In this document: one piece after another, positions 6,676-10,524 of the stretch | How the letters are laid out: each line of letters starts with the position of its first letter | How positions within the stretch are numbered: the first letter of the stretch is position 1 | NCBI RefSeq assembly: GCF_019599295.1 | Contig: NZ_JAIEWN010000052.1 | Span: 5,319 to 37,616 of the forward strand | Source of the DNA: Oscillochloris sp. ZM17-4 | Lineage (GTDB): Bacteria > Chloroflexota > Chloroflexia > Chloroflexales > Chloroflexaceae | Direction of reading: 5' to 3' | DNA length: 32,298 nt | The notes under the pieces: generated by a model | Database searches by the model: none | What the model was told of the DNA's origin: nothing | What the model saw: the letters and a program-made list of their open reading frames with translations, nothing else | Position numbers and translations under genes: made by a program

Positions 6676-8064
6676 CTAGTCGCCGGTCATCGGGCGATCA
6701 GCGGGTCTATCGCTGCGGGGCGCTGGCTGCGCTGGCGCCGGCTGCGTGAGGCGGCGCACGGCGGGCAGGAGCACATCGAGGAGCAGGGCCAGCATGACGC
6801 CGAGCACCAGGCCAACCACCCCCGCCGCGATGCCGCTGAGCGCCGCCCGCGCCACCACTGATGGCTTTGGGTCGAGGGATGTGCTCACGAAGCGCACCTC
6901 GATCTGCGGCGAGCTGCGCGCAATCTCCTGCTCGTCACGCTTGCGCTGGAGCAGTATCAGGGTGTCGCGGGCTAGATCGCGCTGCTGGGTCAGGATATCC
7001 TGCTGGGCGCGGAGCTGCTCGTAGCTGCGGTTGAGCGTGGCGAGCTGGTTGATGTAGCGATTTCGGGTGGCAGAGTCCATCCCCATCGCGGTATCTTTGT
7101 CGTCGGCGATCGCGCTGGCGATCTCGTCGGCCTGAGCGCGCAGCTCATCGCGGCGCTGTGAGATGACCCTGATCAGCCGATCCAGATTCGCGAGCGCGCT
7201 GCCGGACGCCGCATCGACCGAGCCGATGTCGCTGGCGCTCAGCTGAAAGGTCGTCGCCGCTCCACCAACGGCCCGCGCCTGGAGCAGCAGGGCGGCGAAG
7301 CTATCGGAGAAGCTGCTCGCGCCCGAGGCGTTGGCCTGATCGCGCAGCGTCTGCGCGTCCTCAAGAATCAGGTCGAGCTGGTGGGTGCGCGAGAGATAGT
7401 CTGTGTACAGCAGCTGCTGCGCCTCGCGCGATCCGCCCAGCAGGCCGTTCAGCTGCGCGATCTGGCTCTGCATCTGGATGATCTCCCCGCTGCCCAGGAA
7501 GGTCTCCAGCGACTGCTGGGCGCCGTCGTAGCGCTGCTGGGCCGCCGTGAGCTCTGAGGCCAGGAGATCAGAGCGAAACTGGCTGCGGGTGTAGACATCG
7601 GCCACGAGCCTCTCATAGGCCTGGCCCCATGCGTCAGCGATCTTCACCGCCCGCGCAGGGTCGGGGTCGCTCACCGTGATCTTGAGCAGGTCGCTCGACG
7701 ATGACACCTGAACCTGATCGATCAGAGCCTGTATCGGATCAGCTTCACTGCCCCCGGGCGCAGCGCCGACTGCCTCAAAGACCTTCTCGGCAACAGCGTG
7801 GCTAGTGGCGAGGCCGATCAGGGCCTGGCGCTGGGCCGCCGGCGTCGTGGCCTGGCTTCCGCTCGTCGTCTGGAAACGCGGGTCAAGGGTAACCTGGGAT
7901 GACACCGGGACGATCATGATATCGGCGCTGGCGCTGCGGCGCTGCTGTGCGGCGACTGGAATCACAATGCCTATGATCATGAGACCGATCACACAGCTAA
8001 GGATGAGGCGCCAGCGCTTGAGGAGCACAAGCATATATGGCCGTAGGTCGATCTCTTGATCCAT
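6676..8064 (-). CDS. Wzz-like chain-length regulator (polysaccharide co-polymerase)
   Basis: An inner-membrane protein of 462 aa with the polysaccharide co-polymerase layout: a short cytoplasmic N-terminus (EIDLRPYMLVLLKRWRLI), a first membrane helix at about 17-38, a large extracytoplasmic part rich in coiled-coil helices (about 160-410), and a second helix near 418-440 ahead of a proline-rich tail. Such proteins set chain length with the Wzy polymerase. There is no Walker A motif or tyrosine cluster after the second helix, so it is not a fused tyrosine autokinase. The ATG at 8064 gives the usual N-terminus; an upstream TTG at 8100 is possible but less likely. Confidence 0.87.
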   Translation of the reverse strand: MDQEIDLRPYMLVLLKRWRLILSCVIGLMIIGIVIPVAAQQRRSASADIMIVPVSSQVTLDPRFQTTSGSQATTPAAQRQALIGLATSHAVAEKVFEAVGAAPGGSEADPIQALIDQVQVSSSSDLLKITVSDPDPARAVKIADAWGQAYERLVADVYTRSQFRSDLLASELTAAQQRYDGAQQSLETFLGSGEIIQMQSQIAQLNGLLGGSREAQQLLYTDYLSRTHQLDLILEDAQTLRDQANASGASSFSDSFAALLLQARAVGGAATTFQLSASDIGSVDAASGSALANLDRLIRVISQRRDELRAQADEIASAIADDKDTAMGMDSATRNRYINQLATLNRSYEQLRAQQDILTQQRDLARDTLILLQRKRDEQEIARSSPQIEVRFVSTSLDPKPSVVARAALSGIAAGVVGLVLGVMLALLLDVLLPAVRRLTQPAPAQPAPRSDRPADRPMTGD

Positions 8065-8156
8065 AGGAGCTCTCTTCACCGTCGTGGCAGGTATGGGCAA
8101 TGCCGCCGGATTGTAGCAGACGGCCTGTTCTGCGTCAACCTTCTACGGATCGCCGG

Positions 8157-8332
8157 CAGGGCATGAGCAACGTCAGCGGGCGAGTAAACTCACGCCCGCA
8201 GGGCCTGCTGCCGACCGCCCACCTTCGTGGGCGGATCCGGCGTCGGCGTAGGCCGACACCCGGCGCGCAGCGCCCCGTTGGCGCGACTTCCAGTCGCCAG
8301 CCGGGGGGGCCAGGGGCGTTGCTCATGCCCTG
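8157..8332. repeat. Structured intergenic element bounded by 16-bp inverted repeats
   Basis: The gap 8065-8362 has no convincing gene. It holds a 176-base element whose ends, 8157-8172 and 8317-8332, are exact 16-base reverse complements. Between them lie several hairpins: 8176-8199 (GCGGGC/GCCCGC with an inner GAGT/ACTC stem), 8215-8234 (8-bp perfect stem, 4-base loop), 8242-8257 (GTCGGC/GCCGAC), and shorter stems at about 8269-8297. This could be a palindromic mobile repeat, a folded RNA, or an attenuator between the two-helix envelope gene and the Wzz-like gene. Confidence 0.6.
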
Positions 8333-8362
8333 GGGGTCGCCGGCGCGGGTCGGGTCGCGCCA

Positions 8363-9085
8363 TCACGGGCCGCCGGGGTCTGCTGTCTGTGCCCGACGCA
8401 GGGCGAGAGCACCTTCGACGATCAGAAGCATGTAGAGGTAGGCCAGCAGAACGTAGAAGGCTGGCTGCCCGAGGAGCCCTGGCTTGCCCGCAGCCATCGC
8501 TGAGATCGGCCAGATCCTATCGGCCCAGCGGATCTGGTAGAGCGTGGTGATCGCAAGATCCACATCGGGCTGCTGGGTCCCGTCGATGCTCATGCCGCCC
8601 TGGGCTCCAGAGTTTTTGCGTAAGGTGATCTTCGGGCCAGTGTTCGGGGAGATCGCGGGGATATCGAGGCTGAGCCGAAGGGTGCCGGTGATCAGATACG
8701 GGTCGCGTGATGCGATCAGCGGCGGGAAGCGGATGCTGACCACCCCATCCTCGGCGCTGCCCACCACGATGGTGGCGCTTACCAGATCGATCGGCGGCCC
8801 ATCGGCGTAGCGCAGGTGTACCGGAATGCTGATCGCGGCATCGCCCGAGTCGCCCGGCCTGATCCGCACGCCCAGCCCCACCAGGCCTGGCCGTGTGGTG
8901 GTGAAGGTCTGCTCGATTGAGCGAATTCCGCCCAGCGTGATCTCGAGATCGTTGAGGGATGGGTCCGCCTGCTCCTGCTCGAGCGTTGTGATCTGGCTGA
9001 GGGCGATCAGCAGCAGCGCCCCGAGCAGGGCCAGCGCCCAGCGGATGTATGTGCGCGTGGCATGTGCTGCGGAGACGTCTGTCAT
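8363..9085 (-). CDS. Envelope protein with two membrane helices, exopolysaccharide cluster
   Basis: A 240-residue protein I do not recognise. A hydrophobic helix near 15-32 is followed by an extracytoplasmic region of about 170 residues that reads as beta-rich, and a second helix near 205-225 ends in a short basic tail. The topology resembles a scaffold or accessory protein of polysaccharide export. Its ATG at 9085 overlaps the stop of the upstream GT-C gene as ATGA, so the two are translationally coupled and probably act together. The frame is open further upstream, but that would run deep into the GT-C gene. Confidence 0.75.
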   Translation of the reverse strand: MTDVSAAHATRTYIRWALALLGALLLIALSQITTLEQEQADPSLNDLEITLGGIRSIEQTFTTTRPGLVGLGVRIRPGDSGDAAISIPVHLRYADGPPIDLVSATIVVGSAEDGVVSIRFPPLIASRDPYLITGTLRLSLDIPAISPNTGPKITLRKNSGAQGGMSIDGTQQPDVDLAITTLYQIRWADRIWPISAMAAGKPGLLGQPAFYVLLAYLYMLLIVEGALALRRAQTADPGGP

Positions 9086-10524
9086 AGGGTGAAGCGATAG
9101 TAGTAGTTGGACAAGGCGACGCCCCAGGAGATGAGATCGAGGCCGAGCCAGATCCCCAGCAGGAGGAAGGGCCCGGCTGGCTTCCATCTGGCGGGCAGCA
9201 GCCCCTGCCAGCCGAGGGCGATCAGCCAGATCATCGGCAGCATCATGGTGAAGATATAGCGCCCCGTCGGGATGTACGGGCTAGTGCCGTTTGTCGGCAG
9301 CGGGTGTAGCCGCCCGACCATGCTCAGCGCTCCCAGCGTGATCGCGATCAGAAAGAGCCAGATGCAGCGCTCCTGCCAGAGCGGCAGCTGGCTGCGGCCG
9401 CGCCAGCCCTGGATGATCAGCCCGACCCCGCAGAGGGCACAGATCACCGCCATCGACACCTCGGCCCACGTGCCGATCATGACGTGGCCCCAGCCGAAGC
9501 GCACCCAGAAGCTGGTAAACCCGACGACGAGCAGGCGCTCGTAGATATCTCCCGCCTGCGCGGTACTTGTCGCCGAGCGCACCCATGCGTCCAGATTCAG
9601 GCGCAGGTAGCTCACGTCGAACTGCTTGAGCCAGGGGCGTATCGTGAGCAGCGTGGTGCCATCGTCGGCGCGGCCGAGCTCCAGGCCGGACATGGCCAGG
9701 GCCAGGGCCACCCCCAGCATGGCACCGGCGACCACCCAGGGGCGCATGGGTGTGCGCAGCCATGCCCAGAGCAGCGCCAGCAGATAGATCACGATCAGGA
9801 TCACGGCGGTGCGCTTGGTGCCGAGGGCCGTGCCGAGGGCAAGGCTCGCCAGGACGAGCGGTGCCGGGCGCAGCCCGTCGCGGATGAGCAGGGCGCAGCC
9901 GAGCAGCAGGGCGACCGCGCAGAAGTTCACCAGCACGTCGTTGTTCACCGCCGTCATCAGGTCGGCGAAGGTGGGCGTGAGCAGCAGCAGCAGCGGCACC
10001 GCCAGCTGCATAGTCGGCTCATCGGGGACGACCACGCTGGCCACGCGCCATGCGGCCACGATCGTGAGCGCGTAGAGGCACAGGCTGAGCCCGCGTGCGG
10101 CGTAGAGCTGCTGCTCAATGGCCAGGCCGGAGCTGAGGCGCAGCGGCAGGGCGGCGAGGATATAGTAGAGCGGGGGGTGGACGCGCTGGTTCTCGCCGAG
10201 GGTTGGGCCTTCGGGCTTCATCAGATCCGGTATCTGGCCGGGGTCGTAGAAGCGAAAGCGGTACATCGAGTCGGCCACCTCGCGGCGCAGCGCTGGATCA
10301 GAGTCGCTGCGGCTCGGCAGATGGCTGAGGTTCGCGATCAGCCAGGCGTACTCAAACTGGGTCGGCTCGTCGTAGTGCTGCCATGGCGGCACGATCGTCA
10401 GGTAGAGCAGGCCGTGGAGCAGGGCGAGGGGTATCAGCCAGCGCAGCGGGTGATAGACGGCGCGATCCTGGCCAGTGATCGCGGGGGCTGGCGCTGTTGT
10501 AGTGCTCAACTTAACACGCAACAC
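9082..10524 (-). CDS. DUF2142-like GT-C membrane glycosyltransferase
   Basis: A polytopic membrane protein of 480 aa with about ten or more helices. The first extracytoplasmic loop has PPWQHYDEPTQFEY, an acidic DE pair (about residues 52-53) at the place where GT-C enzymes keep their catalytic aspartate/glutamate; the style matches DUF2142 proteins. Such enzymes take sugars from polyprenyl-phosphate donors on the outer face of the membrane. The start is uncertain: a GTG at 10524 is the first in-frame choice after the upstream stop, with TTG codons close by, and a short tandem repeat of ACACGCA sits at the junction. It lies 6 bases after the initiating transferase and is coupled by ATGA overlap to the next gene. 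Confidence 0.8.
   Translation of the reverse strand: MLRVKLSTTTAPAPAITGQDRAVYHPLRWLIPLALLHGLLYLTIVPPWQHYDEPTQFEYAWLIANLSHLPSRSDSDPALRREVADSMYRFRFYDPGQIPDLMKPEGPTLGENQRVHPPLYYILAALPLRLSSGLAIEQQLYAARGLSLCLYALTIVAAWRVASVVVPDEPTMQLAVPLLLLLTPTFADLMTAVNNDVLVNFCAVALLLGCALLIRDGLRPAPLVLASLALGTALGTKRTAVILIVIYLLALLWAWLRTPMRPWVVAGAMLGVALALAMSGLELGRADDGTTLLTIRPWLKQFDVSYLRLNLDAWVRSATSTAQAGDIYERLLVVGFTSFWVRFGWGHVMIGTWAEVSMAVICALCGVGLIIQGWRGRSQLPLWQERCIWLFLIAITLGALSMVGRLHPLPTNGTSPYIPTGRYIFTMMLPMIWLIALGWQGLLPARWKPAGPFLLLGIWLGLDLISWGVALSNYYYRFTL

Follow-up and report, generated by a model that had tools for sequence, protein, structure and literature searches.

A hairpin-rich MITE of Oscillochloris with ISAs1-type ends and its spacing to predicted promoters

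An inverted-repeat element upstream of a Wzz-like gene

The window, by which we mean the whole 32,298-nucleotide stretch of Oscillochloris sp. ZM17-4 DNA that was analysed, holds a cluster of genes for glycosyltransferases, a sugar transferase and a Wzz-like protein. Within this cluster a 298-bp gap separates two minus-strand genes, the Wzz-like gene and its upstream neighbour. The start of the Wzz-like gene at 8064 is our choice and is supported by a matching start in relatives. In the gap lies a 176-bp element, which the original prediction, made from the sequence alone, had described as an intergenic structure with exact 16-base inverted ends and at least four further stems between them. 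Each part of that description holds, the stems in a predicted fold. The features of the locus are as follows.

8157–8332, no strand assigned: MITE copy of 176 bp without a transposase gene, supported by at least 42 matches in its own genome and an alignment of full-length copies
8157–8172, plus strand: left terminal inverted repeat, 16 nt, exact
8317–8332, minus strand: right terminal inverted repeat, 16 nt, exact
8176–8199, plus strand: internal hairpin 1 (predicted fold)
8203–8271, plus strand: internal branched stem around hairpins 2 and 3 (predicted fold)
8215–8234, plus strand: internal hairpin 2 (predicted fold)
8242–8257, plus strand: internal hairpin 3 (predicted fold), its tip reverse-complemented in 8 of 25 aligned copies
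8272–8310, plus strand: internal hairpin 4 (predicted fold)
8147–8156, plus strand: left copy of a 10-bp target duplication (GGATCGCCGG)
8334–8343, plus strand: right copy of the target duplication (GGGTCGCCGG), 9/10 identical, after one extra G at 8333
8133–8138, minus strand: −35 hexamer TTGACG, 18 bp outside the element end, the same hexamer in G005 and G004
8110–8115, minus strand: −10 hexamer TACAAT, spacer 17, preceded by TG
6676–8064, minus strand: Wzz-like chain-length gene (Pfam PF02706, E 4.5e-6), downstream of the promoter
8363–9187, minus strand: upstream gene, no Pfam family at E 0.001

The two arms are 100% complementary and enclose 144 nt. Folded as RNA, the region 8150–8340 reaches −127.4 kcal/mol on the plus strand and −129.1 on the minus strand; shuffled versions average −98.3 and −95.7 (z = −6.3 and −6.8, respectively), and 0 of 200 shuffles folded as well on either strand. 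The G+C content of this copy is 73.9%, versus 63.8% for the window. Between the element and the Wzz-like gene stands a sigma70-like promoter (8138–8110, minus strand), the only one found in 7900–8500.

Repeat family, target duplication and hairpin interiors

The element is multi-copy, with inverted ends, 10-bp duplications and an orthologous site that is empty in two relatives, which bears out the suggestion of a mobile palindromic repeat family. At least 42 matches were found in its own genome (6.69 Mb in 182 contigs), where 40 of 299 first-look candidates were scored. Matches also occurred in 10 of 41 genomes, namely its own, four of five genus mates, one genome of the same family and four of the same order; the sequence is not unique in its own genome or among other Chloroflexota, where the original prediction had proposed to look. 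With up to 3 mismatches allowed, the end pattern occurs at 161 places in the own genome, where the reversed pattern gives 11. When GTDB contigs were scanned for complete elements of 130–190 bp with exact ends, 46 stretches came up, from Ca. Oscillochloris fontis, uncultured Oscillochloris (two bins), Chloroflexales bacterium ZM16-3 and a Herpetosiphonaceae bacterium. All carriers in that scan belong to the class Chloroflexia; the spread may be wider, as exact ends were demanded and the own genome was perhaps outside the scan. By a home-made gene caller, none of 31 own-genome elements reached more than 40 bp into predicted coding sequence, and the 31 lay between divergent (15), tandem (10) or convergent (1) genes, with 5 undetermined. 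The interiors fall, by our reading, into four families that have ends and folding in common and share little sequence.

Several loci have peculiarities of their own. Five loci of the own genome (L140, L143, L151, L152 and L158) have a hairpin interior of the O. fontis type, with ends that are mostly CAGGGCTTCTGCAACGTC. Copies of the window's family at L138 (from 701) and L174 (701–1105) appear to hold other palindromic insertions, and at L171 (618–754) and L128 (488–936) elements lie in tandem with a duplicated target between them, as if one had landed at the other's edge. The single-contig genome G030 of the same order (L038, L045) has four occurrences of a 58-bp piece that matches the interior, and three of these lie within 1.5 kb. 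Runs of N at L129, L130, L142, L147 and others place scaffold gaps inside hairpin repeats.

The target duplication was assessed on 72 end pairs with at most 4 mismatches per end and 90–320 bp apart, taken without a screen for duplications; two of the pairs reuse a left end with a second partner. Their 10-bp flanks were 79% identical, with 33 perfect, versus 27% and 0.5 perfect for re-paired flanks, and at lengths of 5–9 and 11–13 bp nothing stood out in the same pairs. The family has the features of a MITE: it is short and multi-copy, lacks a transposase gene, and has terminal inverted repeats and a target-site duplication.

Orthologs of the two neighbouring genes are adjacent in G005, and in G004 as far as the contig reaches; the gap between them is roughly 80–95 bp in both and lacks the element. 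Because these empty sites keep TTGACG-N17-TACAAT, the element is most likely younger than the promoter and most likely entered upstream of a Wzz promoter that already existed, an order of events seen at this one locus only. At L003, where a second empty site was sought, the upstream gene had three orthologs, and beside none of these was the downstream gene found. In G003, a remnant of another element family lies 3′ of the ortholog of 8363–9187 (L126) and suggests a repeatedly used site.

Interior fold z-scores across the tested copies lay between −1.1 and −12.2. For the O. fontis family, double changes were counted in 9 of 63 pairs (5.5 in shuffles) and in 41 cells (12.6 in shuffles); in the window's family, double-changed cells numbered 20 versus 5.7, and double changes affected 5 of 56 pairs, a count reached by 98 of 500 shuffles. 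Tips occurred in both orientations in three of nine hairpins examined, and in none of the other six. The window-family tip reads GCGCAGGC in 12 and GCCTGCGC in 8 of 25 copies. Across 22 O. fontis copies, one hairpin has GCTTCGC in 5 and GCGAAGC in 4, with GCTGCGC in 4 and GCGCAGC in 3; another has GCGAAGC in 11 and GCTTCGC in 3, with GCTACGC in 3 and GCGTAGC in 2. The reverse-complement tips sit on otherwise similar stems (alignment A2, columns 44–50 and 86–92; A3, columns 93–100).

Template switching, as described in passages of PMC8794818, predicts both loop inversions and instantaneous compensatory changes. In the covariance check proposed in the original prediction, double-changed cells do exceed shuffles, and template switching explains the covariation equally well, so that an RNA role is not proven by it. 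The hairpins are probably held perfect at least partly through template switching in replication, and they serve as a warning that covariation in mobile hairpins need not imply RNA function.

About half of the elements stand at a fixed distance from a predicted promoter

Promoters were called as predicted matches to the sigma70 consensus, with at least 9/12 as the main threshold. An exploratory look at 41 outward-flank intervals, from 27 rows picked by hand, gave many promoters at 18–19 bp. The discovery set comprised 79 elements from six genomes: 69 of the 72 end pairs above, all of at most 200 bp, together with 10 pairs of different sizes from the own genome, the latter with duplications of at least 8/10 and including two (in L128 and L171) that span tandem elements. 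Removal of short, N-bearing and duplicate flanks left 150. In these, −35 hexamers (TTG, at least 5/6) numbered 16 at offset 18 and 19 at offset 19, with at most 2 elsewhere, and −10 hexamers numbered 17 at offset 41 and 26 at offset 42, with at most 3 elsewhere. Promoters of at least 9/12 stood at 18/19 in 41 of the 150 flanks, versus a mean of 0.93 over 14 control 2-bp bins. Counted by element, 41 of 79 have such a promoter at offsets 17–20, none at both ends, versus 0 of 79 at 57–60; the other 38 have no promoter of at least 9/12 at the fixed place. When the threshold was lowered to at least 8/12, the count rose to 50 elements at offsets 17–20 (2 at both ends), with 5 at 57–60.

The peak recurred in a hold-out set drawn from 72 stretches of G041 (O. 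fontis), 48 stretches of G001 and uncounted own-genome ends. G041 had 193 end matches, of which 100 were listed, and G001 had 154; after removal of 41 ends already used and 13 that were short or contained N, 156 new ends were left. Promoters stood at 18/19 in 43 of them, with a mean of 0.64 and a maximum of 5 in control bins, and a mean of 0.245 and a maximum of 2 in 200 shuffles of the hold-out flanks. By source, the counts were 17/72 for O. fontis, 21/53 for G001 and only 5/31 for the own genome. The anchor seems to be the −35 side rather than the −10: for promoters of at least 10/12 with spacer 18, both sets combined, the −35 lay at 18/19 in 12 of 14, with the −10 also at 41/42 in 7. We set aside an anchor read from the −10, which fits less well than the −35 side on these small numbers (14 promoters). 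The duplicated 10 bp and the gap gave no strong consensus in 84 promoter-bearing flanks, and the orientation of the element toward the promoter had no bias (8/8 and 7/6).

Elements with similar ends and a transposase frame link the family to ISAs1. NF033564 transposases were found in 17 of the 41 genomes searched, including the genus mates G003 and G005. At L056 (G032), an element whose transposase frame is 409 aa long has CAGGGCATGTGCAAAGTC at each end; this end is one base off the window-family consensus end and identical to the common end of O. fontis elements. A degraded transposase element at L077 (G005) has the left end of L056, again with a single mismatch to the consensus, and its right end differs from the consensus at three bases. 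Through these two loci the ends of the MITE match those of ISAs1. Their own flanks have no duplication (4/10 and 2/10); perfect 10-bp duplications, the same length as in the MITE, occur elsewhere, at 7 of 30 ISAs1 loci when the best-scoring end pair is used per locus. In passages of PMC11946415, the Frankia ISAs1 elements Francci3_2330/2941 have ends that begin CAGGG and a 10-bp repeat, and ISArsp11, 1,306 bp long, is given with CAGGGCTGATGCAAAGTCG and a 10-bp repeat in passages of PMC6305408.

An autonomous partner in the same genome, as expected of an ISAs1-derived MITE, was not found for the own genome (G000), which gave no match to NF033564 or PF13808 at E 0.001; by eye, no IS-sized pair of the same ends was present among the 100 listed of its 161 places. 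NF033564 was not found in G001 or G041 either, both rich in end-like sites. The partner of the element-rich genomes must have been lost, been missed by the draft assembly, or be another transposase. As a side observation, element ends were most numerous in G000, G001 and G041, three genomes with no ISAs1 match; G003 and G005 had fewer ends and an ISAs1 match, and G004 had the fewest ends (25) and no match either.

Autonomous ISAs1 elements whose ends resemble those of the family have the spacing as well. Elements were drawn from relatives, from a phylum survey (an ISAs1 match in 78 of 400 genomes, with loci added from 20 further stretches) and from plasmids, which gave 62 elements with accepted ends, some of them loose. 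Under a post hoc division by end type, class A (ends like CAAAGTC or AATTCTA, n = 28, several being near-identical copies at different sites of one genome) had a promoter at 18/19 in 12 elements at 9/12 or better and in 18 at 8/12 or better; the corresponding counts were 2 and 5 for class B (GCAT-type ends, n = 23) and 2 and 3 for the remaining ends (n = 11). Class A promoters of at least 9/12 numbered 3 at offset 17, 5 at 18 and 8 at 19, with at most 1 elsewhere; L056 had no promoter of at least 9. When 39 transposases were placed in a tree, most class A members fell together; L062 was among the exceptions. For plasmids of other phyla, 12 ISAs1 loci were taken from 40 listed of 842 records, clinical isolates being left out. 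Ends were found in 11 of the 12 and a 10-bp duplication in 6; none had a promoter of at least 9/12 and two reached 8, most of these loci having GCAT-type ends and hence hardly testing class A.

Interpretation and comparison with known systems

We consider it highly probable that 8157–8332 is an ISAs1-mobilised MITE whose family is targeted to a fixed place upstream of sigma70-type promoters. An ISAs1-family DDE transposase would move the MITE in trans, recognising ends of the form CAGGGC...GCAAnGTC and making a 10-bp staggered cut. The complex would prefer a fixed site upstream of a sigma70-type promoter, whose −35 box would then begin 18 or 19 bp outside the element, a distance made up of the 10-bp duplication plus 8–9 bp; either end of the element could face the promoter. 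The source of the precision may be that the transposase docks on promoter-bound RNA polymerase, or that it reads the −35 box itself, and the benefit would be a site where insertion does no harm in a genome crowded with genes.

The same MITE could also insert without targeting, with selection sparing only the copies just upstream of promoters. The lack of coding overlap among the 31 own-genome elements, and their distribution over divergent, tandem and convergent gaps, would suit such a filter; an insertion placed another 10 or 20 bp upstream ought to do equally little harm, yet other offsets are nearly empty. We favour targeting because of this 2-bp precision, which would then arise at insertion and not by later selection, and we regard the filter as unlikely. 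An attenuator or terminator that reduces expression of the Wzz-like gene, as the original prediction had also proposed, would agree with a strongly folded element between two co-directional genes. This proposal is not supported: the element lies upstream of the conserved promoter of that gene, whose hexamers and spacing are kept in the two relatives that lack the element, and a terminator scan returned no site; we hold it to be very unlikely. The element could have an effect on read-through from the upstream gene. Being interspersed, intergenic and palindromic, the element also recalls REP/BIME- or ERIC-type repeats unrelated to ISAs1. In passages of PMC3733652, REP/BIME are defined as a 20–40 bp palindrome with a GTAG or CGTC tag, linked to RAYT; a size of 176 bp sets the element apart from them, as do its inverted ends and 10-bp duplications, which are common to ISAs1 elements, and we give such an origin next to no chance.

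The last option of the original prediction was a structured RNA. If a non-coding RNA or a cis-acting mRNA element preserved the hairpins through its function, the folding z-scores of the interiors and the excess of double-changed cells in both families would be accounted for. Against this, the window-family count of double-changed pairs is readily matched by shuffles, the families are alike in ends and foldedness and little in sequence, and all four Rfam matches in 7900–8700 fall below the gathering score. The tips found in both orientations in three hairpins form a pattern credited to template switching in passages of PMC8794818, and either end faces the promoter without bias. We judge an RNA function to be quite unlikely, and of the three options it is the mobile family that stands.

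A wider picture, to which we give somewhat less than even confidence, would extend the reading of the element as an ISAs1-mobilised, promoter-targeted MITE. One ISAs1 transposase lineage may have evolved the reading of promoter-bound RNA polymerase independently of TnGBS/ISKra4, with hairpin MITE families riding on it, so that an element would stand at a constant distance upstream of many promoters in Oscillochloris-type genomes. The interiors, interchangeable and arm-copied by template switching, would insulate the promoter from upstream transcription.

ISAs1 insertion sequences resemble the element in their CAGGG-starting ends and 10-bp direct repeats, and ISArsp11 also in GCAAAGTC (passages of PMC6305408 and PMC11946415); they differ in carrying a transposase gene, which the 176-bp window element lacks. 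Bacterial MITEs such as RUP, NEMIS, ERIC, Nezha and MITEPye1 are likewise described, in passages of PMC3733652 and PMC11578231, as 70–300 bp long with inverted ends and no coding capacity, with folded transcripts and often beside genes. The window copy differs from them in its G+C content of 73.9%, MITEs being typically AT-rich according to passages of a review (PMC10969869), and in its ISAs1-type ends and fixed promoter distance. In passages of PMC9208149, which contain no fixed distance to promoters, insertion sequences generally are said to lie often in promoter regions, less than 100 bp from genes, and ISAs1 is named among the families with preferential insertions. We found no report of promoter targeting by ISAs1 or by any MITE, or of an ISAs1 MITE, in the titles, opening lines of abstracts and passages covered; passages of PMC3542288, PMC10433421, PMC3281130 and PMC4133298 contain neither ISAs1 promoter targeting nor an ISAs1 MITE. 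Yeast Ty3 and other tRNA-targeting retrotransposons also rely on a transcription-start landmark to find a safe place for insertion (passages of PMC5911963), but they are retroelements, are tied to RNA polymerase III and bear no relation to the element.

TnGBS and ISLre2 (p-MULT 3) insert upstream of sigmaA promoters at 15–17 bp from the −35, and some ISKra4-group elements (p-MULT 4) at 13–17 bp, according to passages of PMC3942029, a paper in which ISAs1 has 0 occurrences. With our family they have in common that insertion occurs upstream of a sigma70/sigmaA −35 at a constant distance, in either orientation for those with near-perfect inverted repeats. The abstract of that paper speaks of promoter-upstream targeting by some Mutator-like transposases as a "unique insertion specificity", and its authors proposed contact with the RNA polymerase initiation complex. 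Those systems use Mutator-like transposases with the −35 at 13–17 bp, whereas here the ends are of ISAs1 type and the distance is 18–19 bp; we keep the element out of their class because the transposases found in elements with such ends are of the NF033564 (ISAs1) type. Fixed-distance promoter targeting, previously described for other kinds of bacterial transposon, here appears in ISAs1-type elements, including a MITE, and such elements may mark promoters where genomes have no start-site maps. A different DDE family, a 2-bp peak and its confirmation in the hold-out together suggest that the transcription machinery has been adopted convergently to mark a safe place to land, as in yeast Ty3, a mechanism that becomes testable by comparing unrelated transposases.
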